The position numbers were made by a program, and so were the translations under genes. This document shows, in pieces, positions 1,443 to 53,448 of a stretch of 64,000 nucleotides of DNA (positions within the stretch are counted from its first letter, which is position 1; every line of letters starts with the position of its first letter). This DNA comes from an uncultured Acidobacteriota bacterium (GTDB lineage: Bacteria; Acidobacteriota; Terriglobia; Terriglobales; Acidobacteriaceae), in contig CAIQPK010000090.1 in NCBI GenBank assembly GCA_903873705.1, positions 124,001 to 188,000 of the forward strand, in the 5' to 3' direction. The notes beneath the pieces were generated by a model. That model saw only the letters and a list, made by a program, of their open reading frames with translations, searched no databases and had not been told where the DNA came from.

Positions 1443-2534
1443 ATGTCCCATTCCGCACAGAAAACCTACCGCATTGCAGTAATTCCCGGCGACGGCATTG
1501 GCACAGAAGTAGTTCCAGAGGGCGTGCGCGTGCTGCATGCGGCAGCGAAGCGCTTTGGCTTTACCTTGGAACTGGACGAGTTTGACTTTGCATCGTGCGA
1601 CTACTACCTGGAGCACGGCCGCATGATGCCGGAAGATTGGAAGGAGAAGATTGGCAGCCATGACGCCATCTTCTTCGGCGCGGTAGGGTGGCCGGATAAG
1701 GTGCCGGATCACATTTCACTGTGGGGTTCACTCATTGCCATGCGGCGTGAGTTTGATCAGTACGCGAATCTTCGGCCTGTGCGCCTGATGCCTGGTGTTC
1801 CCTCTCCGTTAGCGAACCGCAAGCCGGGTGACATCGACTTCTTAGTGGTTCGCGAGAACACCGAAGGCGAATACTCGTCCATCGGCGGCACAATCTTTCC
1901 CGGCACGGAGCGCGAGGTAGTGGTTCAGGAGACGGTAATGACGCGGGTGGGCGTCGACCGCATTCTTCTATTTGCGTTTGAATTGGCAAATCGCCGGGAA
2001 AAGAAACACCTGACGTCAGCGACGAAGTCCAACGGCATCTCGATCACCATGCCGTATTGGGACGAACGCGTGATCGCCATGGCCAAAAACTATCCCGGCG
2101 TGCGCTGGGACAAATACCACATCGACATTTTGACCGCCCACTTCGTCCTCAATCCGGATCGCTTTGACGTGGTAGTAGCTTCAAACCTGTTCGGTGACAT
2201 CCTGTCAGACCTCGGACCGGCATGCACCGGAACGATTGGCATAGCTCCGTCTGGCAACATCAATCCCGAGCGGAAGTTTCCCTCGTTGTTCGAACCCGTC
2301 CATGGTTCCGCACCGGACATCGCTGGAAAAGGTATCGCCAACCCTGTGGGACAAATCTGGTCTGCTGCAATGATGCTTGACCATCTCGGCGAGCCCGAAG
2401 CCGCATCAGCAATTCTCTCCGCGATCGAAACCGTTCTGCAGAACAAAATGCTCTGCACCGTCGACGTGGGCGGCTCCGCGAGCACGGTCGTCATGGGACA
2501 AGCCATCGCGGAGGTGCTCGCGGAGACGCCGTGA
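1443..2534 (+). CDS. tartrate/D-malate dehydrogenase (isopropylmalate dehydrogenase family)
   Basis: A 363-residue NAD-dependent beta-hydroxyacid oxidative decarboxylase. The N-terminal nucleotide-fold motif IAVIPGDGIGTEVV, the substrate-region segment DHISLWGSLIAMRR, the NLRPVRLMPG segment and VVRENTEGEYSSIGG are characteristic of the TtuC/DmlA branch and not of LeuB or Icd. The metal-site region is SNLFGDILSDLGP and the nucleotide loop is EPVHGSAPDIAGKG. Predicted reactions are oxidation of tartrate to oxaloglycolate and/or D-malate to pyruvate; sequence cannot separate these. It follows the MFS permease closely and probably shares its transcript. Confidence 0.9.
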   Translation: MSHSAQKTYRIAVIPGDGIGTEVVPEGVRVLHAAAKRFGFTLELDEFDFASCDYYLEHGRMMPEDWKEKIGSHDAIFFGAVGWPDKVPDHISLWGSLIAMRREFDQYANLRPVRLMPGVPSPLANRKPGDIDFLVVRENTEGEYSSIGGTIFPGTEREVVVQETVMTRVGVDRILLFAFELANRREKKHLTSATKSNGISITMPYWDERVIAMAKNYPGVRWDKYHIDILTAHFVLNPDRFDVVVASNLFGDILSDLGPACTGTIGIAPSGNINPERKFPSLFEPVHGSAPDIAGKGIANPVGQIWSAAMMLDHLGEPEAASAILSAIETVLQNKMLCTVDVGGSASTVVMGQAIAEVLAETP

Positions 2535-2552
2535 TGATATCCCGTTCCGAAG

Positions 2553-2681
2553 AACGTCACCGTGGCCACCAAGGTGCAAGTCTACTTCTGTGATCCGCAA
2601 CTTCCCTGGCAGCGCGGCACCAACGAAAACACCAACGGTCTGCTGCGACAGTACTTCCCAAGCCCAAGGCTGAGGCGCTAG
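2553..2681 (+). pseudogene. IS30-family transposase remnant (C-terminal tail)
   Basis: Reading from 2553 gives [26 protein letters not shown] and [10 protein letters not shown] before the frame runs into unrelated residues and a stop at 2679. The segment with [14 protein letters not shown] and QYFP is the highly conserved C-terminal catalytic region, including the last acidic DDE residue, of IS30-family transposases. Only about 40 codons remain, an in-frame stop lies just upstream at 2535, and there is no start codon or inverted repeat, so this is a decayed fragment. It lies between the dehydrogenase stop and the end of the convergent gene, overlapping the latter by 4 bp. Confidence 0.8.
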
Positions 2682-3244
2682 CGTCCCGGCGGGGCGGGGA
2701 CCATGACGGCATCGGGGTCTACTTTGGGGATGCCGAAGTGGCCGCTGAGGTGGACGAGGTCGAGGGGGCGGAGGAGGCCGGAGACCTCGATGACGTTCAT
2801 GTTTTTGGGGCCGCGGACGAGGACCGTGACGTCGTCGATCTCGGCGCCGCGGAAGTGGAGCCAGAGGTCGGTCATGGGCTTGCGGGGCATGGTGGCGTCG
2901 CGGGGGGAGGCGGCGTTCTGGTTGACGAGGTGCTTCCAGCCGGCGCGGTTGTAGGCGGCTATCAGCGAGGCCATGCTCTCCGGAATGTAGAACGCGGGCT
3001 CGTGGTAGCGGAAGCTTTCGACCGTGATGCTGTTGAGGGCGGCGGTGACGTTGTGGACCTCGGGGCTGCCGTCGTCGATGAAGCCGGCGGCGCTTTGCAG
3101 CATGTCCTTATCGAAGGTGAACGCGGTGTGGGAGGCTGGCTGGGAGGCCATGCTGGCGAGGGCCTCCTGTGCGCCGCGGGGTTGCTGGGCGGAGGCGGTG
3201 AGCGACAAAGCGAGGAGGGGGGTGATGAGACGCAGATTGGTCAT
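2678..3244 (-). CDS. exported hypothetical protein
   Basis: A 188-residue protein not assigned to a named family. The first 19 residues form a signal peptide ([19 protein letters not shown] followed by QQ), so the mature protein is probably periplasmic or secreted. The body is soluble, with segments such as [24 protein letters not shown] and [19 protein letters not shown], and the tail ends in a Pro-rich stretch. It is a single gene on the reverse strand, convergent with the dehydrogenase; its last codons overlap the IS30 remnant. The C-terminus may therefore have been altered by the old insertion. Confidence 0.7.
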
Positions 3245-3358
3245 GGGGCCGATGCTCCTGGTTGGTTAGACACGCGGTGCGGGGGAATGTTGCCTTGAGC
3301 CCAGGGATTGGGGATTAGGGAAGATACGGAACGTGGTGGTGTTCGCTTCGGTGGAGAA

Positions 3359-3390
3359 CCATGTCCGAGATTCCGGACATGGGGCACCCG
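3359..3390. repeat. REP-like palindrome, copy A
   Basis: Perfect 9-bp arms ccatgtccg / cggacatgg separated by a 6-nt spacer (agattc), followed directly by ggcacccg. Very similar palindromes followed by gggcacccg occur at 7073-7105 and, more diverged, at 7904-7937. This copy lies in the intergenic region upstream of the chromate transporter gene. It looks like a dispersed acidobacterial intergenic repeat. Confidence 0.7.
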
Positions 3391-3471
3391 ATCGCACCGT
3401 TCGCGAGTCCCAACAGGGGTACCCCTCGTCATCGCCGGAATGGCTAGTTGGGCTCTGGTAAGTTGGTTTCT

Positions 3472-4020
3472 ATGGTTCGTCCAAGTTTGCGCGAGATTGG
3501 TGCTCTTTTCTTTCGCCATGCGAACTGGGTTTTCGGCGGCGGCAATGCGACCGTGGCCGTGCTGCAGACCGAGCTGCTCGAAAACAAGAAATGGATAGAC
3601 GAGGAGACATTTGCGTTCTCGTTCGCACTGTCGCGGCTGGTGCCGGGGACGAATGTGCTGGCCTTTGCAGCCGGGGTGGGATGGCAGCTGCGCGGTGCAG
3701 CGGGGGCCATTGTGGCGCTGCTGGCGAGCACGATTCCCTGCTCGCTGCTGACGGCGCTGGTGACCGTGCTGTATGCGTATTGGGCCCATAATCGCTTTGT
3801 GAGTGTGGGACTTACGGGCGCGATGGCGGCTGCTACCGGGGTGATGATCGCTTCCGGCTGGGTGCTGGTGCGGCCTTACTGGAAGCGGGCGACCCTGGTG
3901 CGGGTGTTCCTGTTTGCGGGTGGGACTTTGGCGTTGGGTCTGAAAGGCGTTTCGCCGATCAAGATGATGGTTGCGTTCGCGGTGATCGGGTACCTTTGGC
4001 CGGAGCGGGCGACCGTATGA
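3472..4020 (+). CDS. chromate transporter, N-terminal-type half (CHR family)
   Basis: A 182-residue single-domain CHR protein with the diagnostic N-terminal pattern FRHANWVFGGGNATVAVL followed by LVPGTNVLAFAAGVGWQLRG, which corresponds to the P-G-P region of ChrA. About six hydrophobic segments follow. In short-chain CHR systems two half-size proteins from adjacent genes work together, and here the next gene is the matching partner, overlapping by ATGA. Predicted role is chromate (or sulfate-like oxyanion) transport across the inner membrane. The ATG at 3472 is chosen because the conserved start MVRPSLREIG aligns with family starts; an in-frame ATG at 3448 lies in non-conserved sequence. Confidence 0.85.
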   Translation: MVRPSLREIGALFFRHANWVFGGGNATVAVLQTELLENKKWIDEETFAFSFALSRLVPGTNVLAFAAGVGWQLRGAAGAIVALLASTIPCSLLTALVTVLYAYWAHNRFVSVGLTGAMAAATGVMIASGWVLVRPYWKRATLVRVFLFAGGTLALGLKGVSPIKMMVAFAVIGYLWPERATV

Positions 4021-4550
4021 ACATCTTTGTGCTGTTCCTGTTCCTGCTGAAGGCCGTGGCGACGAGCTTCAGCGGGTTCGCGTCGATCCCGATACTGCGG
4101 GCGGACCTGGTGCTGCATCATCATGTGTTGACGGATCAGCAGCTGAATACGGCGATCGTGGTGAGCCGGGCTACGCCGGGGCCGGTGGCGCTGTACGTGG
4201 TGAGTGTGGGGTACATGGTGGCGGGGACGCCGGGGGCTATTGCGGGGTGGCTGGCGATGACGCTGCCGGCGTTGATTATTATCCCGCTGCTACTGTTTGC
4301 AGGGCGGTTTGTGACGCATCCGCGGGTGCGGTCGATGCTGCAGGCGATCATTCTTTCCAGCGGCGGACTGATGTGGGTGGCCGCGATGGAGCTGGCGCAT
4401 GGCACGGTGAACGATGCTGTGACGGTGGCGATCTGCGTGGTGACCGTTTTGCTGCTGTGTACGCGGAAGGTCGACAGTATATGGGTGATTTTGGGGGCCG
4501 CAGCGGCGGAGCTGGGGGCGGCTTCGGTGCACCTGGTGGCGGGGCTGTGA
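4017..4550 (+). CDS. chromate transporter, second half (CHR family)
   Basis: A 177-residue partner of the preceding CHR protein. The N-terminus MNIFVLFLFLLKAVATSFSG, then ASIPILRADLV, VLTDQQLNTAIVV and RATPGPVALYVVSVGYMVAG follows the CHR domain pattern, with the TPGP motif retained. About five to six membrane segments. Its ATG overlaps the stop of the first half (ATGA), indicating translational coupling and a 1:1 heteromeric transporter. An upstream in-frame ATG at 3996 would add seven residues but lies inside the preceding gene. Confidence 0.85.
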   Translation: MNIFVLFLFLLKAVATSFSGFASIPILRADLVLHHHVLTDQQLNTAIVVSRATPGPVALYVVSVGYMVAGTPGAIAGWLAMTLPALIIIPLLLFAGRFVTHPRVRSMLQAIILSSGGLMWVAAMELAHGTVNDAVTVAICVVTVLLLCTRKVDSIWVILGAAAAELGAASVHLVAGL

Positions 4551-4643
4551 CTGATGATTGTCTGGGGAGAACAACGGCAACGGCTTTGACGCAAAGTTCG
4601 CTTAGTTTCAACGCCACGTTTCGCTAAGTAGAACAGGCCACGG

Positions 4644-5666
4644 TTAGCGGCCGGCGCGGGGGGCGAAGTAGCCCTTTTTGGCGCGGACGGCGTAGCGGGG
4701 GTCGAGGGCGTGGAGGTAGATGGTGCGGAAGGAGCCGTCCTGCTTGAAGTCGGCGGGGACGTAGATCAGCAGGTACTGGCTACGGAGCTCTTCTTCGATG
4801 TTCTGGAAGCCGATGGCCACGTCTTCAATGCGCTTGGGGAAGAAGGCCTGGCCGCCGGTAGCGTCAGCGATCTGGCGGAGGATGTCGTCGCCGGCGTCCT
4901 TGCTGGGTCCGACGTTGGTGCTGATGGTGTAGACGATGGTCTCAGCGCGCTGGCACATCTTAATGGCGTCGGACTCGAGGGCGCGGCTGTAGTCGTCGTC
5001 ACCGTCGGAGACGAGAACGAGCGCCTTGCGGACGGAGTTCTTTTCCTTGAGCGTCAGCATCTGGTCGCGGCAGGTTTTGTAAAGGGCGTCAAAGAGCGCG
5101 GTGCCGCCGCCGGGGCGGAGGCGGCTGATGCCGGTGTTGAGCAGGTCGATGCGGTTGGTGAAGTCCTGCGAGAGGTCGGTCTGGACGTCGAAGCCTTCGA
5201 CGAAGGCGCGGTCTGCGGGGTGCATGACCTGGAGGAAGAAGTCGATGGCGGCCTGCTGCTCGAACTGGAAGCGCTGGCGGATGGAGTTGGAGGTATCGAG
5301 CAGAATGCCGACGCGGAGGGGCAGGTTGGTCTGCTGGGTGAAGCTGCGGACGCGGACGGGAGGCTTGCCGTCGTCGAGCAGGCCGAATGCCTGCTGCTGG
5401 AGGCCGGTGACGAAGTGGCCGTTCTTGCCGGCCACGGTGAAGATGAGATCGACTTCGTTGGTGAAGACGGTGATGGTGCTGGTCTGGTCTTCAGGCGGCG
5501 GCGGGGCGTCTTCGCGGGGCGTGAGCACGGGCGTTTGCGCGGAGGGCGGCTGGACGGCCGGCTGTTGCGGCGCGGGGGCCTGGGCGACGAGCGGCGCGGC
5601 TGCAGAAACGAAAAGAGCGGCGGCGAGGATGCGCGCCAGGGTAGAGCTGCTTGCAGGGTTGTTCAC
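4644..5666 (-). CDS. exported VWA-domain protein (VWFA-related, acidobacterial type)
   Basis: A 340-residue protein with a signal peptide (hydrophobic core about residues 13-29), a Pro/Gln-rich linker to about residue 62, and then a VWFA-related domain. The MIDAS metal-binding motif is ILLDTSNSI (DxSxS at about 124-128) and a second acidic cluster is VLVSDGDDDYS. The segment FTVAGKNGHFVTGLQ before the VWA core is typical of the large paralogous VWFA-related family of Acidobacteriota. Probable role is extracytoplasmic protein-protein or adhesive interaction; substrate unknown. It is the last gene of a reverse-strand run after the Lgt-like and RluD-like genes, with a 56-bp gap. Confidence 0.85.
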   Translation of the reverse strand: MNNPASSSTLARILAAALFVSAAAPLVAQAPAPQQPAVQPPSAQTPVLTPREDAPPPPEDQTSTITVFTNEVDLIFTVAGKNGHFVTGLQQQAFGLLDDGKPPVRVRSFTQQTNLPLRVGILLDTSNSIRQRFQFEQQAAIDFFLQVMHPADRAFVEGFDVQTDLSQDFTNRIDLLNTGISRLRPGGGTALFDALYKTCRDQMLTLKEKNSVRKALVLVSDGDDDYSRALESDAIKMCQRAETIVYTISTNVGPSKDAGDDILRQIADATGGQAFFPKRIEDVAIGFQNIEEELRSQYLLIYVPADFKQDGSFRTIYLHALDPRYAVRAKKGYFAPRAGR

Positions 5667-5722
5667 GGTGTCATCTTATCAACTTACGGGCTAGACGGGC
5701 GTTTTGTTCGTCACACGACAGG

Positions 5723-7027
5723 CTAAGCGCCGCGAAGTTGTTGCAGGGTGGTGGCTAATTCGGGGGGCAGGTCGGAGTCGAGTTCGAGGCGTTGTTTGGT
5801 GCGGGGGTGGAGGAATTCGAGCTGGGCGGCGTGGAGGAAGTTGCGTTCGAGCTCGACGGGGTCGCTGAATTTATCGACGGCGGGAATTTTGTGCGGGGCG
5901 CCGTAGAGGGTGTCGCCGACGACGGGGTGGCCCAGGGACTGCATGTGGACGCGGATCTGGTGGGTGCGGCCGGTTTCGATGCGGACTTCGACAAGGGTGA
6001 ACTTGCCGAAGGGACCGTCTATGCGTTCGAGGACGGTGTAGTGCGAGACGGCGGTGCGGCCGCCCATGCGGCGGGTGGTCATGCGGGTGCGGCGGATGAC
6101 ATCGCGGCTGATGGGAAGGGTGATGGTGCCCTGGTCGTCTTCGATGTGCCCGTGGACGAGGGCGAGGTAGATTTTGCGGAGGCGGCGCTCGGCGAACATG
6201 TCCGATAGCTTGCGGTGGGTGCTGTCGTTTTTGGCGACGACGATGAGGCCGCTGGTCTGCTTGTCGAGGCGGTGGACGATGCCGGGGCGGAGATCGCCGG
6301 AGACCTGCGAGAGGTTTTTGCCGAGGTGGAAGAGGAGCGCGTTGACGAGGGTGCCGCGGTTGCGCTCTTCGTCGCCAGCGCCGGCGTGGACCATCATGCC
6401 GGCGGCCTTGTTGACGACGGCGAGGTCGTCGTCTTCGTAGACGATGTCCAGAGGGACGTCCTCGGGGGTGGCGCGGAGGGGCTCGGGCTGGGGGTCGCCT
6501 TCGATTTCGATGAGCTCGCCGCCCTTGAGTTTCTGCTTGCCCTTGGCGGGCTCGGCATTGACGGTGACCTGGCCGTTGTCGATGAGGAGGGTGACGCGGG
6601 CGCGGCTGATGTCGGGGATGGCCTTGGCGAGGTAGGCGTCGAGGCGCATGTTGGCGGCCTCGGGCGGCGCGGTGATGGAGCGGATGCCGTCTTCGGGTTC
6701 GAGGTCTTCGATGGCGTGGATTTCGGGCTTTTCGGCGACGGGGATGCGCGGCGCGGCGTAGCGCGGCTTGGACATCGTCGCTTCTTCCTGGGGATGCTTG
6801 CCGCCATTTGGGCCGCTGGTGACGAGGCCGGGCACGTTGGCGTAGGGGGAGGTGTGGAGCGGGATGAAGTCGGCGGTGTCGTAGAACTGCTCAACGGCGT
6901 CTTCGACGGGCTCGCCGGCGGCGCGGGCGGCGGCTTCGCGCTCCTGCACGAGGGTGCGCATGGCGCGGTACTCCTGCTTGACGGACTGGCGGCGATTGCC
7001 CTTGGGGAGCATGTTCTTGGATGGCAT
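5723..7027 (-). CDS. rluD: RluA/RluD-family 23S rRNA pseudouridine synthase
   Basis: Cytoplasmic enzyme converting uridines in rRNA to pseudouridine. From the ATG at 7027 it is 434 residues: a charged N-terminal extension of about 120 residues unusual for RluD, an S4 RNA-binding domain (MRLDAYLAKAIPDISRARVT), and the catalytic domain with GIVHRLDKQTSGLIVVAK, whose aspartate (HRLD) is the nucleophile, plus RTHQIRVHMQSLGHPVVGD. The ATG overlaps the upstream stop as TAATG, supporting coupling. An internal ATG at 6775 would give a family-typical length and cannot be excluded. Assignment to RluD among RluA paralogues is likely but not proven. Confidence 0.85.
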   Translation of the reverse strand: MPSKNMLPKGNRRQSVKQEYRAMRTLVQEREAAARAAGEPVEDAVEQFYDTADFIPLHTSPYANVPGLVTSGPNGGKHPQEEATMSKPRYAAPRIPVAEKPEIHAIEDLEPEDGIRSITAPPEAANMRLDAYLAKAIPDISRARVTLLIDNGQVTVNAEPAKGKQKLKGGELIEIEGDPQPEPLRATPEDVPLDIVYEDDDLAVVNKAAGMMVHAGAGDEERNRGTLVNALLFHLGKNLSQVSGDLRPGIVHRLDKQTSGLIVVAKNDSTHRKLSDMFAERRLRKIYLALVHGHIEDDQGTITLPISRDVIRRTRMTTRRMGGRTAVSHYTVLERIDGPFGKFTLVEVRIETGRTHQIRVHMQSLGHPVVGDTLYGAPHKIPAVDKFSDPVELERNFLHAAQLEFLHPRTKQRLELDSDLPPELATTLQQLRGA

Positions 7028-49312: not shown

Positions 49313-49320
49313 TAACCTTC
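49313..49320 (+). repeat. left 8-bp target-site duplication
   Basis: taaccttc immediately left of the left inverted repeat; an identical copy lies immediately right of the right inverted repeat at 53441-53448. Confidence 0.95.
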
Positions 49321-49349
49321 GGTAGTGGGTCAGTTTGCTTTTCCACAGG
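49321..49349 (+). repeat. left terminal inverted repeat (29 bp)
   Basis: Begins ggtagtgggtcagtttgctt and ends ttccacagg. It is the exact reverse complement of 53412-53440. Beyond base 29 the two ends diverge. Confidence 0.95.
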
Positions 49350-49385
49350 CCGCCTTGGCATCCCCGCTTGTGGGATCATTGTTCC

Positions 49386-49640
49386 ATGAGTACCACCAGA
49401 GGAAAAAGACCGACCGACCCTAACCAACTCGCAAAGTGGGTCGTCGAACAGTCTACCTCTGAACCCGACTCCCCCAAAGTTGTGCCCGTCCCCAAAAGCC
49501 TTTCCTCGTATATGTCTGCTATTGGGCGGAAAGGCGGAGCCATCGGGGGCAAACGGCGGCTGCTCACCATGACGCCAGAGAAGCGCCGCGAGGCCGCCAT
49601 CAAGGCTGCTCAGGCTCGCTGGAAGAAACCCCCGGCCTAA
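49386..49640 (+). CDS. small basic passenger protein (KGG-like)
   Basis: An 84-residue protein (MSTTRGKRPTDPNQLAKWVV) with the C-terminal pattern GRKGGAIGGKRRLLTMTPEK followed by REAAIKAAQARWKKP. Short GG-K-G-G / K-A-A-x-A-R-W proteins like this are common in bacteria and resemble KGG stress-type or nucleic-acid-binding tails; function unknown. First gene at the left end of the transposon, 36 bp from the inverted repeat. It overlaps the convergent XRE gene by 4 bp. Confidence 0.75.
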   Translation: MSTTRGKRPTDPNQLAKWVVEQSTSEPDSPKVVPVPKSLSSYMSAIGRKGGAIGGKRRLLTMTPEKRREAAIKAAQARWKKPPA

Positions 49641-49852
49641 ACACCCTTCAGGAACTCAGCCACGGTCATGCCGAAGCTGGTTGCCAGCATTTCAACCAAG
49701 CTCACATGGATGTCCCGCTTTCCATTCTCGATCTCTGAGATGTGGCAGCGGTTTATGCCTGAGATTTCAGCAAGATAGTGCTGGTTCCAGCCGCGCTTTC
49801 CCCTCAACAGCCGCAGACGCCTCCCCAGCCGCACGTTGACGTCATTTGCCAC
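49637..49852 (-). CDS. XRE-family helix-turn-helix regulator
   Basis: A 71-residue single-domain DNA-binding protein: VRLGRRLRLLRGKRGWNQHY, LAEISGINRCHISEIENGKR, DIHVSLVEMLATSFGMTVAE. The Cro/CI-type HTH has the usual Q, G-x-x and S-x-I-E-x-G-K-R residues. It lacks any extra sensing domain. A 20-bp palindrome lies 31 bp upstream of its start, between it and the divergent membrane-protein gene, the expected position of an operator. Probably represses itself and the cargo. Confidence 0.88.
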   Translation of the reverse strand: MANDVNVRLGRRLRLLRGKRGWNQHYLAEISGINRCHISEIENGKRDIHVSLVEMLATSFGMTVAEFLKGV

Positions 49853-49882
49853 ACCTCCAGAATCGCGTTACCGTTGCACCTA

Positions 49883-49902
49883 ATGTTGGATGTCTCCAAC
49901 AT
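49883..49902. promoter_or_regulatory. 20-bp palindromic operator candidate of the XRE regulator
   Basis: atgttgga-tgtc-tccaacat: perfect 8-bp arms separated by 4 nt. It sits in the divergent gap between the XRE gene (start 49852) and the membrane-protein gene (start 49969). Size and symmetry suit a dimeric XRE repressor. Confidence 0.7.
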
Positions 49903-49968
49903 ACCTGCGCGGCCAATCCGAGCCCCTCGGCCATTCCAAAATTTGGACTGACTCAACGGGGAGAGTCT

Positions 49969-50574
49969 ATGGATATCGGCGCCATCTTTAGCAAATTGCG
50001 AAGCAGATACTTTTGGTTGGTACTAGCGAGTTTCCTCTTCGTTATTGCCATGACGTTTTTACCCTCAGTTCCTATGAGACAAGGTGATCGCGATGACCCT
50101 AATGATGACGCGCCAGTGGAACACGTTTCCCCATTCTTCGCTGGGTTCATCGCAGCTTGCGCTCTGGGAGGATTCTGGACATTTGACTACAGGCGGCAGC
50201 ACCCAAAGAGATCACCCAACCTACGCGGTCCAGTGATGGATTACTACAGTGGGCAACGTTTCTTCCCTGATTTCTACGTGGCCGAAGGAGAGAAGTGGGC
50301 TTGGATGGCATGTATTCGCGAAACCGAGAGCGGCGAGATGCACGCATTTGAGTTGGAACCTGTCATCCACGAAAACGATCTGGGTTACGGGGACGACATC
50401 CACATCCTGCCACGAAGATTCAATGAGAGCGACAGCCTAGAAGGACATGACCTTGCGAGATCCTGTTGCTGTATCCCGGTCATCATGGAACAGGTTCGCG
50501 GAAGAACGCTCGTGATCCATCTGGAGAAAGATCACCGGAGCTCACCTGCGTCTGAATTCGATAAATCCTCATGA
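49969..50574 (+). CDS. transposon-borne membrane protein
   Basis: A 201-residue protein with two membrane segments (FWLVLASFLFVIAMTFLP, about 15-32, and PFFAGFIAACALGGFWTFDY, about 55-74) and a soluble C-terminal domain of about 125 residues (FFPDFYVAEGEKWAWMACIR, MHAFELEPVIHEND, RSCCCIPVIMEQVRGRTLVI). Not recognised. The three consecutive cysteines are unusual. The ATG at 49969 follows a GGGGAGAG site. Its promoter probably overlaps the XRE operator candidate. Confidence 0.7.
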   Translation: MDIGAIFSKLRSRYFWLVLASFLFVIAMTFLPSVPMRQGDRDDPNDDAPVEHVSPFFAGFIAACALGGFWTFDYRRQHPKRSPNLRGPVMDYYSGQRFFPDFYVAEGEKWAWMACIRETESGEMHAFELEPVIHENDLGYGDDIHILPRRFNESDSLEGHDLARSCCCIPVIMEQVRGRTLVIHLEKDHRSSPASEFDKSS

Positions 50575-50638
50575 AGTCGTTCGATTCTTGCTGTATTTTC
50601 TACGAACCTTAGAGATGCTTATGTTGAGGAGAATTGAT

Positions 50639-50992
50639 ATGCCGGATGGTAAAGCAAAGGGTGCGCTTCGGGAGTATGTTGATGACGTGACCGGCACAAG
50701 TGCCGCGAGAACGGTTCGCAAAGCTGCACGATCGATAGCGGATCACGTCAGGAAAGCTGTTATTACGACTGACCCTCCAAGGAAGAAGGGGCCGGCCAGG
50801 GGTGGACAAAGCGATGGCGGGGGCGCGGGTGGCTCATGGGAAACGGGCGGAAAGATTCGCAAGACCGGGCCCGCGAACCTACACGCTGGAGAGCGCGTGA
50901 TTCCACGGAGCAAGGTCAAGAAGGTTGAGCGGTTGATGCGGAAGTCAAAAATGAGAATGACGAATAAGCGGCGGGGATCAAGCGGGCGATGA
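50639..50992 (+). CDS. transposon-borne small protein with phage-like HAGERVIP motif
   Basis: A 117-residue, strongly basic protein (MPDGKAKGALREYVDDVTGT) with a Gly-rich middle and the segment LHAGERVIPRSKVKKVERLM. Short H-[AR]-G-E-R-V-[IV]-P segments recur in phage-derived structural or tape-measure-like proteins, which hints at a phage origin but no function. The ATG at 50639 is backed by GAGGAG 7 nt upstream. Its stop overlaps the next start (ATGA). Confidence 0.65.
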   Translation: MPDGKAKGALREYVDDVTGTSAARTVRKAARSIADHVRKAVITTDPPRKKGPARGGQSDGGGAGGSWETGGKIRKTGPANLHAGERVIPRSKVKKVERLMRKSKMRMTNKRRGSSGR

Positions 50993-51171
50993 CTGTGGCT
51001 TTCCGCACCTGTTGCCTTCTTTTGGCAGCAATCATAATGTGGGTAGTCTTCGGCCATCCATTTCAGAGGCCCACGGCTGTTTGCAGGGATGGGCACATTA
51101 GCTACTCCAAGCATCGGTCTGGAACGTGCTCTTGGCATGGCGGAGTTGCCAAGTGGGAGCCGAAGCACTAA
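50989..51171 (+). CDS. transposon-borne DUF3761-like small exported protein
   Basis: A 60-residue protein with a signal-like N-terminus (FRTCCLLLAAIIMWVVFGHP) and the DUF3761-type core CRDGHISYSKHRSGTCSWHG followed by GVAKWEPKH. That core, C-x-D-G-x-x-S-x-S-x-H-x-x-G-T-C-S-x-H-G-G-V, is a short cysteine-rich domain of unknown function, often exported. Co-translated with the preceding gene (ATGA). Confidence 0.75.
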   Translation: MTVAFRTCCLLLAAIIMWVVFGHPFQRPTAVCRDGHISYSKHRSGTCSWHGGVAKWEPKH

Positions 51172-51485
51172 GCCCTCTTAAGCTTCCGCAGATTGAATAC
51201 GTCCTGACGTGCTCTCTTCATCTTCTCAATCATCGCGGAAACAGACGCAACAGTTTCAAAACTCGCGAACTCGTCGGGTGTCAGACGGTTTTCGATATCG
51301 CCTTCTGGGGTGAAATCAGAAGGACTCGGTTCCAGCAGCGCGTTGCGCCGGAGCCGGTCGGCGATCTGCTCCAAAGCCTTCGCCGCGCTAATTGCATTGC
51401 CGCGTATAAAGCCCAGACCATCCTCAGCATCCTCAATTTGAACCAGCAAAGTGCCTCGATGTAGCTTCCTGTCTTTATCGGTCAT
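51168..51485 (-). CDS. transposon-borne hypothetical protein
   Basis: A 105-residue soluble protein on the reverse strand (MTDKDRKLHRGTLLVQIEDA, FIRGNAISAAKALEQIADRL, SAMIEKMKRARQDVFNLRKL). Not recognised; mostly helical with a basic C-terminus. It is convergent with the DUF3761 gene, overlapping by 4 bp, and divergent from the transposase, sharing a 112-bp intergenic region. The frame extends upstream to 51551; the ATG at 51485 gives the more natural start. Confidence 0.6.
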   Translation of the reverse strand: MTDKDRKLHRGTLLVQIEDAEDGLGFIRGNAISAAKALEQIADRLRRNALLEPSPSDFTPEGDIENRLTPDEFASFETVASVSAMIEKMKRARQDVFNLRKLKRA

Positions 51486-51561
51486 GACAACACTGCTCCT
51501 GATCTCTATGCAATCACGGCTTTCCGATTCCCGCCACACGAAAATTCTCAATCTCTTCCTA

Positions 51562-51590
51562 TTGACATGCTAAAGCGGCTAAAGCATAAT
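51562..51590 (+). promoter_or_regulatory. consensus sigma70-type promoter of the transposase
   Basis: TTGACA at 51562-51567, a 17-nt spacer and CATAAT at 51585-51590. The expected start of transcription lies 6-8 nt downstream at about 51597, essentially at the transposase ATG (51598). The mRNA would be leaderless or nearly so. The spacer contains the near-direct repeat gctaaagc. Confidence 0.65.
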
Positions 51591-51597
51591 CGCAAGT

Positions 51598-52485
51598 ATG
51601 AACTGCCTCGATACCGACACGCGCGCCAAAGTCATCCGCTGCCTTATTGAAGGCTGCTCGATCCGCGCTACCGTCCGCATGACTGGCGTTGCCAAGAACA
51701 CCATTGCAAAGCTACTGGAAGATATCGGCTGCGCCTGTGCCCACTATCACAATCGGCATGTGAGGAACCTGCGAGTGCGACGGTTGCAGTGTGATGAGAT
51801 TTGGTGCTTCGTCGGAGCCAAAGCCAAGAACACTCACTACGACAAGAAGGCTGAAGGATGGGGCGACATATGGACCTGGGTGGGAATCGACGCCGATACA
51901 AAGCTAGTTGTCGGCTACCTCGTAGGAGGCCGTGACGCGGGCTGGGCGATGGAGTTCATGCAAGACTGTGCCGACCGCATCAAGGGCCGCGTACAGGTCA
52001 GCACAGACGGCCACAGAGCCTACTTTAGCGCCGTCGAAGGCGCGTTCGGTATGGATGTGGACTACGCCATGATTCAGAAGATTTACGGGGCATCCTCAGA
52101 GCACGAAACCCGCTACTCTCCGGCCACCTGCATCGGCTGTGACATCAAGGTTGTCAGCGGTAATCCAGACCCCAAGCACGTATCCACCAGCTTTGTAGAG
52201 CGTCAGAACCTCACCATGCGGATGGGGATGCGTCGCTTCACTCGGCTTACCAACGGATTCAGCAAGAAAGCAGACAATCACCGTCATGCGGTTGCGTTGC
52301 ACTACATGTATTACAACTTCTGCCGTGTGCATCAGACTTTGCGCGTCACTCCAGCTATGGAGGCGGGCATAGCAAGCCGCGTCTGGACGGTAGAAGAACT
52401 CTGCGAACTTCTCCCAAAGCCTACCGTCTCAGCGTCTACGATTGACCGCGACTTGCTACGGAAGGCTCTCGGGGAAACAGCCTAA
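51598..52485 (+). CDS. IS1-like DDE transposase
   Basis: A 295-residue transposase with an N-terminal HTH (SIRATVRMTGVAKNTIAKLL, about 21-40) and an RNase H-like core. Likely catalytic acids are D66 (LQCDEIWCFVG), D137 (VSTDGHRAYF) and E201 (SFVERQNLTMRMGMRRFTRL). The end reads HYMYYNFCRVHQTLRVTPAM. This is the family usually labelled IS1 or IS1-related in soil bacteria, with one uninterrupted frame instead of the frameshifted insA-insB of classical IS1. It presumably cuts and joins at the 29-bp inverted repeats and makes the observed 8-bp duplication. A consensus promoter lies directly upstream. Confidence 0.9.
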   Translation: MNCLDTDTRAKVIRCLIEGCSIRATVRMTGVAKNTIAKLLEDIGCACAHYHNRHVRNLRVRRLQCDEIWCFVGAKAKNTHYDKKAEGWGDIWTWVGIDADTKLVVGYLVGGRDAGWAMEFMQDCADRIKGRVQVSTDGHRAYFSAVEGAFGMDVDYAMIQKIYGASSEHETRYSPATCIGCDIKVVSGNPDPKHVSTSFVERQNLTMRMGMRRFTRLTNGFSKKADNHRHAVALHYMYYNFCRVHQTLRVTPAMEAGIASRVWTVEELCELLPKPTVSASTIDRDLLRKALGETA

Positions 52486-53270
52486 GTTTTCCCCACTCTA
52501 GCCCTTGCGCGTTCCATGCGGTCTTTGGCGTCCTGTCGGAGTTTGTGACATTGGCGGTCGAACTCTGCGAATGTTGCCTCGAAGTCCTCATCAGCAGTCG
52601 AAGCGTCCGAGAACGACATCAGCAGCGGTTTCAGAATCCCATTGAACTCCCGGCCGCGAAACTCAATATCCAAGAGTTGCGAGGGTGGGATTCGTCGCAA
52701 TCTCCCCTGTTCTGGGAGGATCGTCACCTCGCTAAACTTTCCACCGCATCCTGGTACGCTGCTCTTTACCTGCTCCAAAATTTGGACTGCCAAGAGAGCG
52801 GCCTTGTCGGCGGGTTCCCGCTCTGGGCTCAACCCTCTGGACAGATAGTGCCCAAGCGTCTCCCCCGCACCAAGAAACGCGCTTACGGTTACCGGACGGA
52901 TCGATGTTCCTGACGTTTGCAGCAGACGCAGGTCTCCCCCGTCCTTGATGCCGATAAGCAGACTAATGAACGGCTTCGGGTCTGACGGGTAATGCCGTAT
53001 GTGGTTGCGGTGAACCTTCATAACAACGTCTTCGATAATCTCTTCGATCTCGTCAGCGGTCTTCGCAAACTGACCTTGAATCTTGATCTTGCTGACCGTC
53101 ATTTTGATGAAGTCAGTCCATCCTGATCCGGCGAAAACAACGGTTGGACCAGTGACGGAGGCCATCGTGAATATCTTCGATTCCTCGTACTTATCCAAGT
53201 CGTTCGTTACTTCAGAATCGGCACAAATCACGATACCGTCGCGGCACACAAACCCAGCGGCTATGGTCAT
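52482..53270 (-). CDS. transposon-borne proteasome-beta/HslV-like Ntn-hydrolase
   Basis: 262 residues from the ATG at 53270. MTIAAGFVCRDGIVICADSE matches the start of proteasome beta/HslV chains: Thr directly after Met would be the N-terminal nucleophile, ADS corresponds to Asp17, and the Lys in EESKIFTM to Lys33. FAGSG fits the oxyanion/Gly47 loop and FLGAGETLGHYL the later glycine motif. No ATPase partner is encoded nearby. The frame extends 44 codons to a GTG at 53402 that has a perfect AGGAGG six nt upstream, partly within the inverted repeat, so a Pro/Arg-rich propeptide form of 306 residues is possible. Overlaps the transposase stop by 4 bp. Confidence 0.8.
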   Translation of the reverse strand: MTIAAGFVCRDGIVICADSEVTNDLDKYEESKIFTMASVTGPTVVFAGSGWTDFIKMTVSKIKIQGQFAKTADEIEEIIEDVVMKVHRNHIRHYPSDPKPFISLLIGIKDGGDLRLLQTSGTSIRPVTVSAFLGAGETLGHYLSRGLSPEREPADKAALLAVQILEQVKSSVPGCGGKFSEVTILPEQGRLRRIPPSQLLDIEFRGREFNGILKPLLMSFSDASTADEDFEATFAEFDRQCHKLRQDAKDRMERARARVGKT

Positions 53271-53411
53271 GGGAGGTTCTTTCTCCTCAAGCCGCTCAGG
53301 ATAGGGACGCGGGCGTCTCGGTATCGGCTTTGGCAGAATGATACCCGGTCTCGTATAGGGGTGCCGGACGGCCCACGGAATTTCGCTAATCAACGCCTTC
53401 ACTGTCCACCT

Positions 53412-53440
53412 CCTGTGGAAAAGCAAACTGACCCACTACC
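53412..53440 (-). repeat. right terminal inverted repeat (29 bp)
   Basis: Exact reverse complement of 49321-49349. Its inner edge provides part of the AGGAGG site upstream of the GTG at 53402. Confidence 0.95.
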
Positions 53441-53448
53441 TAACCTTC
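53441..53448 (+). repeat. right 8-bp target-site duplication
   Basis: taaccttc, identical to 49313-49320. Confidence 0.95.

Follow-up and report, generated by a model that had tools for sequence, protein, structure and literature searches.

Small insertion sequences (IS) are usually thought to be bare. Members of the IS1 family are short elements, about 0.8–1.2 kb, with the genes insA and insB′, they create target duplications of 8–9 bp, and their transposases carry an N-terminal zinc ribbon; one passenger-bearing IS1 subgroup is named ISMhu11. Siguier et al. 2009 is reportedly the reference for transporter insertion sequences (tIS). Here, we analyze a 64,000-nt stretch of DNA from an uncultured Acidobacteriota bacterium (the window; contig CAIQPK010000090.1, positions 124,001 to 188,000), where positions 49313–53448 comprise a complete cargo-bearing transposon, its transposase IS1-like, together with its target duplication. 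The tIS are described as IS elements with passenger genes (PMC3129680, PMC9330008, PMC7986276). The window element shares with them its inverted repeats, a single transposase gene, passengers unrelated to transposition and a target duplication: IS-type ends enclose both its transposase and its passengers. The IS1-related family to which it belongs differs from tIS in having cargo as a lineage-wide rule, a conserved second gene (ORF1), and restriction, toxin–antitoxin-like and protease genes that are swapped in and out.

The family and the IS1 family have in common an IS1-type DDE domain (PF03400) and an 8-bp, rarely 9-bp, duplication. In contrast to the short insA/insB′ layout, the window element is 4120 bp long with a single-ORF transposase of 295 aa, and its family mostly spans 2–5 kb with cargo. 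The zinc ribbon seems absent from its transposase, because the match to the NCBIfam IS1 equivalog NF033558 starts at model position 42. IS1595-family elements likewise have 8-bp duplications, passenger genes and, in these bacteria, a gene of the same proteasome-like Ntn hydrolase family, but their ends are different and the window transposase matches neither PF12762 nor PF12760, both of which are found in an IS1595-family comparison protein. Tn7-like transposons carry cargo rich in anti-phage and toxin–antitoxin genes (PMC8649781); the window unit is far smaller than these and has a single transposase gene.

The window element is delimited by 29-bp terminal inverted repeats (IRs) that are identical at 29/29 positions (49321–49349 on the + strand, 53412–53440 on the − strand) and is bordered on both sides by exact copies of TAACCTTC (49313–49320 and 53441–53448). 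The duplication is 8 bp long because the next outward bases differ (G versus C). The first-pass annotation had proposed these boundaries, with an IS1-like transposase and seven passenger genes inside them, and we recovered all of it, including seven plausible passenger open reading frames (ORFs) if ORF1 is counted. It had also taken the mismatch-free repeats as a sign of recent transposition. Perfect IRs alone are no proof of recency, because 54/69 elements of the family, the window element included, match at all 16 of their outermost 16 bases. What suggests a recent insertion is the element’s absence from congeners, described below, and its foreign base composition (54.7% G+C, versus 62.1% in one 10-kb flank and 62.7% in the other). 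The IR pair occurs once in its own 4.18-Mb genome, with up to 3 mismatches allowed. The transposase (51598–52485, + strand) matches PF03400 at 27.0 bits (cutoff 24.1) and NF033558 at 54.9 bits, below the cutoff of 100; its acidic residues D66, D137 and E201 are invariant in 59/59 aligned family members. A composite transposon was ruled out: a single transposase gene lies within one IR pair, and no long flanking repeats are present between 47500 and 55500.

Matches to this transposase come from 23 public genome-contig loci, from 68/150 related genomes (E ≤ 0.001) and from 93/399 genomes of the class (E ≤ 1e-60), the element’s own genome being in both of the genome counts. To delimit elements in 123 sources (the window, the 23 public loci and 99 further stretches, with L096 omitted because it shares a contig with L005), we looked on either side of the transposase for paired inverted ends starting GG that are bordered by identical direct repeats of 8 or 9 bp. 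Nine sources had been taken for their ORF1 and have no transposase match; the other 114 yielded 69 delimited elements. Control searches with the true ends masked (0/69) or on shuffled loci (0/69) returned nothing, which rules out chance repeats. Left ends begin GGTA in 69/69 elements and right ends begin GGTA (64), GGCA (3) or GGTC (2); at least 15 of the outermost 16 bases match in 63/69. The duplication is 8 bp in 67/69 elements and 9 bp in 2/69, the only two lengths searched. A search for copies with other 8-bp duplications had been recommended for the window element, and they exist: the 8-bp duplications are mutually different in 67/67 cases, and share a weak symmetric target preference, with a purine at position 2 in 52/67 and a pyrimidine at position 7 in 57/67. 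The sample is silent on how fast duplications decay, because exact ones were required.

Element size points to cargo as a regular component. The 58 elements with an intact transposase ORF (260–345 aa) range in length from 1852 to 5278 bp, with a median of 2823 bp; because none of the 58 is below 1.85 kb, cargo is the rule in the family. The first-pass view that cargo is unusual for such an element is not supported in that form: every intact member exceeds bare-IS size, and IS with passengers have been described (PMC3129680, PMC9330008). At the small end, L073 (1984 bp) has no ORF of at least 85 aa besides the transposase and ORF1, and L021 (1046 bp) contains a transposase fragment only. On sequence evidence the family is very probably mobile, and the 69 elements with distinct duplications and the empty sites at the level of gene order are compatible with its members moving as one unit. 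At L153 (G145:C565), some 400 nt into its contig, one element’s end lies 8 bp (GAAAATTC) from another’s start, as if one copy had inserted beside another.

The window element sits between a TonB-dependent-receptor-like gene, named by inspection, and a small gene, which we take to be DUF2237. The small gene is present in 28/28 genomes of the genus, its own included, and we examined its neighborhood in 20 of the 27 other congener genomes. In 5/20 (L163, L165, L167, L171 and L174), both flanking genes are adjacent in the window’s order and orientation, across a short gap with no element; their receptors are 72, 39, 56, 43 and 81% identical to that of the window, respectively, and those at 39% and 43% may be paralogues. 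The remaining 15/20 loci have no such receptor beside the small gene, some of these stretches being short and two showing weak matches elsewhere. The explanation that we consider best, with a probability of about 0.82 when taken as a whole with the mechanism proposed below, is that the window element is a complete insertion of a small cargo transposon family of the IS1 superfamily, and that it entered this site after its species split from its congeners.

The second conserved gene of the family is ORF1 (49386–49640, + strand), which encodes a small basic protein of about 84 aa beside the left end. The first-pass annotation started this gene and the proteasome-like gene at TTG codons within the IRs; comparison with relatives corrects both, probably to the ATG at 49386 for ORF1 and the ATG at 53270 for the proteasome-like gene. 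A profile built from 12 copies of ORF1 matches 58/69 elements at E ≤ 1e-3 and 54/69 at E < 1e-12, the latter comprising 54/61 elements whose transposase is at least 52% identical to the window’s and 0/8 of the more distant ones. A few of the 54 are longer proteins with the same motif, such as a 410-aa P63C-like protein in L102; in the P63C-like cargo of L008, L102 and L142, the ORF1 motif GGxARA...R..IA..AA.ARW stands near the N-terminal start. The strong matches run in the transposase direction in 47/54 cases, and in 42/54 they are on the + strand with a start at most 110 nt from the left end. The predicted structure consists of three helices, with no match to the PDB at E ≤ 0.001, and the copy on Mesorhizobium plasmid CP050295.1 (L176:3075–3284) is publicly annotated as ‘histone H1’.

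We compared distances across 47 elements by Mantel tests. Transposase distances correlate with ORF1 distances (r = 0.28, p = 0.0005) and with IR distances (r = 0.23, p = 0.003; p = 0.007 with ORF1 accounted for), and the correlation of ORF1 with IR distances is r = 0.10 (p = 0.07; p = 0.28 given the transposase). IR distance tracks the transposase and not ORF1, as would be expected if the ends are recognized by the former and not by the latter; the correlations are weak. Eleven ORF1 loci have no full transposase nearby (L145–L155). Upstream of ORF1, in the ten that were read (L155 was left out), left-end-like sequence is present in L145, L146, L149, L151, L153 and L154, and none was found in L147, L148, L150 and L152. 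Most likely, ORF1 is a DNA- or transposase-binding regulator of transposition.

Beyond ORF1, the cargo is diverse. We scanned 126 cargo proteins (38, 44 and 44), covering the longer and more certain ORFs, with Pfam at E ≤ 0.001, and assigned cargo to single elements by reading the sequences. Among the matches listed are restriction-type proteins (a DNA methylase with an Mrr domain, MmeI, and GmrSD N and C domains), Fic, SocA-Panacea, PemK and HicA proteins, some of them toxin–antitoxin-like, OLD/AbiEii-like ATPases, IrrE-type peptidases with helix-turn-helix domains, ClpP- and SDH-type, trypsin-like, aspartyl and proteasome proteases, and the families DUF4258, NYN, BRO-N and P63C. The earlier suggestion of a ‘defence, stress or addiction’ module agrees with the restriction, toxin–antitoxin and protease domains of the family; the window element’s own cargo includes no clear defence gene. 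From domain content, we put the chance that cargo serves defence or addiction in most members at about even.

The commonest passenger cluster apart from ORF1 is the proteasome-like Ntn hydrolase, cargo of 12/70 elements (the 69 and L003). In the window element, its gene (52482–53270, − strand) converges on the transposase and overlaps the transposase 3′ end; the gene converges on this end in 9/12 elements (8 with an intact transposase ORF, and L076 by match), the exceptions being L125 and L129 (divergent) and L133 (codirectional). The window protein shows the T1, D17, K31 pattern, and T1, G5, G11, D17, K26 and K31 are invariant in 12/12 IS1-borne copies. Its predicted structure (pLDDT 90.4, pTM 0.82) best matches 1j2q_H, an Archaeoglobus proteasome beta subunit (E = 4e-12), with Anbu chains next; its sequence profile retrieves proteasome beta chains, and its match to PF00227 (20.9 bits) is just below the cutoff of 22.4. 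The protein thus appears, by sequence pattern and model, to share the fold and the catalytic Thr1-Asp17-Lys pattern of Anbu, HslV and proteasome beta subunits, and it differs from them in being transposon-borne and very divergent, in a C-terminal helical extension in the model, and in having no ATPase partner in the window element. More distant proteasome-like proteins occur in L015 and L112, one recognized by Pfam and one by inspection.

The Ntn protein diverges quickly. In 24 pairs of elements whose transposases are at least 65% identical (65–85%), mean identity is 23% for the Ntn protein, aligned as full ORFs with their doubtful N-terminal extensions, and 66% for ORF1; the highest Ntn identity in these pairs is 45% (L005 versus L007). 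Ntn identity does not correlate with transposase identity (rho = 0.05, 55 pairs of 11 elements). Because this fast divergence coincides with retention of the catalytic residues, it suggests either an arms race or repeated replacement by distant alleles. A role of the Ntn hydrolase in defence or addiction is a possibility that we hold to be rather doubtful.

Genes of this Ntn family are also borne by another type of element. With the Ntn profile as query, 150 related genomes yielded 28 places in 25 genomes, the window’s own included; 4 are IS1-related elements already delimited, 18 were fetched with wider surroundings, and 6 weak or contig-end places were left out. In eight loci (L215, L217–L220, L223, L224 and L226), the Ntn gene converges on an IS1595-family transposase. 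That of L188/L218 matches PF12762 at 114.8 bits (cutoff 27) as well as PF12760, and the other seven are 54–61% identical to it. These eight elements are 1971–2562 bp long and have ends of the type CATGATTATTTACTTGACAAA, with 13 to 16 of 16 bases matching, and exact 8-bp duplications; controls with masked ends (0/8) and shuffled sequence (0/8) found none. Thr1 is kept in 7/8 of their Ntn copies and is Ser in L217, by inspection. In the other Ntn loci, the gene lies beside transposase fragments (L222, L230 and L231) or beside a distant IS1595-like transposase (L225, 35%), no adjoining transposase was found in L214, L216, L221 and L227, and L228 and L229 are weak profile matches of another type. 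Further IS1595-family loci have, at the same place, more divergent Ntn-like proteins (L232, L233 and L236, by inspection) or membrane proteins.

A neighbor scan of IS1595-family loci covered convergent genes. Elements of this family of about 1.9–4 kb (L232–L248 and L215–L226) often have one gene convergent on the transposase, which in the closest of them is mostly Ntn hydrolase-like and in others encodes what look on inspection like small membrane proteins.

A phylogeny of 27 Ntn proteins groups the IS1595-borne copy of L217 with the IS1-borne copy of L099 (95/85) and then with that of L003 (95/93). The best tree contains five changes of carrier, at least 2 of them on well-supported branches. 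Because the carrier label is somewhat clustered on the tree (22 and 32 of 500 shuffles are as low) and the branches are very long, exchange of the Ntn gene between IS1-related and IS1595-family elements is likely, not proven.

We propose the following mechanism. The DDE transposase would recognize the paired GGTAGTG... ends and move the whole unit (4.1 kb here, mostly 2–5 kb in the family), leaving 8-bp duplications, by a cut- or copy-and-paste chemistry like that of the IS1 superfamily. ORF1 would be a core accessory gene that regulates transposition. The rest of the element would be an exchangeable compartment with one or a few genes that earn the element its place, to judge by their domain content, through restriction–modification, toxin–antitoxin-like or protease functions that may protect or addict the host. 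The window payload would be the helix-turn-helix regulator, the membrane protein, the small ORFs and the Ntn hydrolase. As the weakest step, the Ntn hydrolase probably cuts intracellular proteins and so may control rival mobile elements or the host’s reaction. In a bolder version, which we regard as tentative and somewhat less probable than its opposite, the Ntn hydrolase would be a transposon-specialized protease traded between IS1-related and IS1595 carriers and evolving as fast as immune and anti-immune proteins do, and the ORF1 and transposase chassis would be a general shuttle for small defence and addiction modules across several phyla.

Several observations weigh against this account. 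There is no clean element in 45/114 loci with a transposase match; 12 of these have a full-length or nearly full-length match with 6 kb or more to either side of it, and the rest are limited by contigs or are fragments. In the closest relative, L003 (8875–11917, transposase 85% identical), both ends are present without a matching duplication: its flanking 8-mers differ, as if after recombination between copies. Eleven of the 69 elements lack a match to the ORF1 profile, and 8 of the 11 belong to the more distant branch. At the insertion site, the joined flanks did not align base by base with a relative, the gap between the flanking genes being too diverged to show a single uninterrupted TAACCTTC; the empty site is therefore claimed at the level of gene order, in the five congener loci. 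Many cargo proteins have no Pfam family match. Finally, the cargo proteins (38, 44 and 44) matched 264, 175 and 118 PADLOC families, versus 26 for 44 flanking-gene controls, but these counts are inflated by redundant models and the controls are not length-matched, so that the contrast is a tendency and not a measured enrichment. These controls comprised 44 genes out of 60 candidates, taken one per locus from among the longest flanking ORFs; of the 95 Pfam families that they match, the 25 listed are mostly metabolic, and the control genes also match AbiU, DRT and type IV restriction models.

The turnover of cargo bears on another explanation, in which the element is an ordinary transporter IS whose passengers are host genes that are captured at random, bring neither element nor host an advantage and soon disappear. 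Of 115 pairs of elements with transposases less than 35% different, 24 share any detected cargo, many small ORFs have no assignment, and passenger-bearing IS are already known, all in line with accidental capture. Against it, cargo content differs from that of the flanking-gene controls, in the rough comparison above, the family has no intact member of bare size, and the Ntn gene is cargo of two transposase families, each of the 12 IS1-borne copies retaining the catalytic residues. We consider accidental capture improbable, though it deserves to be taken seriously.

An explanation of similar standing, also improbable in our estimation, is that both the Ntn hydrolase and ORF1 act in transposition: ORF1 would help to build the transposase–end complex and the protease would clear the transposase or a host blocker. 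The position of ORF1 at the left end in most strong matches is consistent with this, as are its divergence along with the transposase and the existence of elements (L133, L056 and the IS1595-family elements of about 2.0 kb) with little beyond a transposase and an Ntn gene. However, few elements carry a gene of this Ntn cluster, and the Ntn protein diverges independently of the transposase, unlike a transposase partner. That the window element is a dead relic merely looking intact is very improbable: it has a single copy in its genome, but its transposase is open with all three acidic residues, its IRs and duplication are perfect, and it is absent from the same place in congeners.

The remaining features of the window element lie between ORF1 and the transposase. 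A small helix-turn-helix regulator of 71 aa (49637–49852, − strand) matches PF13560 (40.3 bits, cutoff 27) and PF01381 (39.2 bits, cutoff 23). A probable membrane protein (49969–50574, + strand), recognized by hydrophobic stretches on inspection and started at an ATG within the longer ORF 49846–50574, has no Pfam match above cutoff and no PHROGs match. Next come a 134-aa basic ORF (50588–50992, + strand) with no Pfam family matched, a 60-aa DUF3761-like ORF (50989–51171, + strand; PF12587, 48.3 bits, cutoff 29) and a 127-aa ORF (51168–51551, − strand), again with no Pfam family matched. A promoter-like site, TTGACA-17-CATAAT (51562–51590, + strand; 11/12 matches), stops 7 nt short of the transposase ATG, and a transcript from it would therefore be almost leaderless; the region contains no more such sites than expected by chance.

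The family is distributed across organisms and replicons. Transposases 76–79% identical to the window’s occur in other genera and same-genus matches reach 70%, a pattern that points to horizontal arrival. By transposase, the public loci nearest to the window are L003 (85%) and L004 (82%). Of 18 matched plasmid records, 4 were read. Elements with matching ends, an 8-bp duplication and ORF1 are found on named plasmids of Mesorhizobium loti (3370 bp), Acidiphilium multivorum (2634 bp, IR 15/16) and Hoeflea sp. (4224 bp); a Methylocapsa polymorpha plasmid has the left end and ORF1, and its right end was looked for and not found. Elements also come from draft genomes labelled Chloroflexi, Pirellulales (Planctomycetes), Verrucomicrobia and Syntrophaceae, where binning errors are possible. 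Viral contigs contain 6 relatives, one of them (L210) with a delimited element: it occupies 2113–6265, with an 8-bp duplication, in a contig of 103 kb that carries a viral label and could serve the element as a phage vehicle.

The literature searched, which for the most part did not extend to subscription papers or to ISfinder, revealed no account of this family and ORF1 or of a transposon-borne Ntn hydrolase. What appears to be new is cargo as a rule, ORF1, and an Ntn gene common to two transposase families. The elements form a widespread lineage, in Acidobacteriota, in drafts from other phyla and on alphaproteobacterial plasmids, in which cargo is the rule, and their clear ends let that cargo be catalogued element by element. 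They offer a route to unrecognized genes for defence, toxin–antitoxin systems and proteases in soil bacteria that have been little studied, and they raise the question of why one hypervariable proteasome-like enzyme should be cargo of two transposase families.

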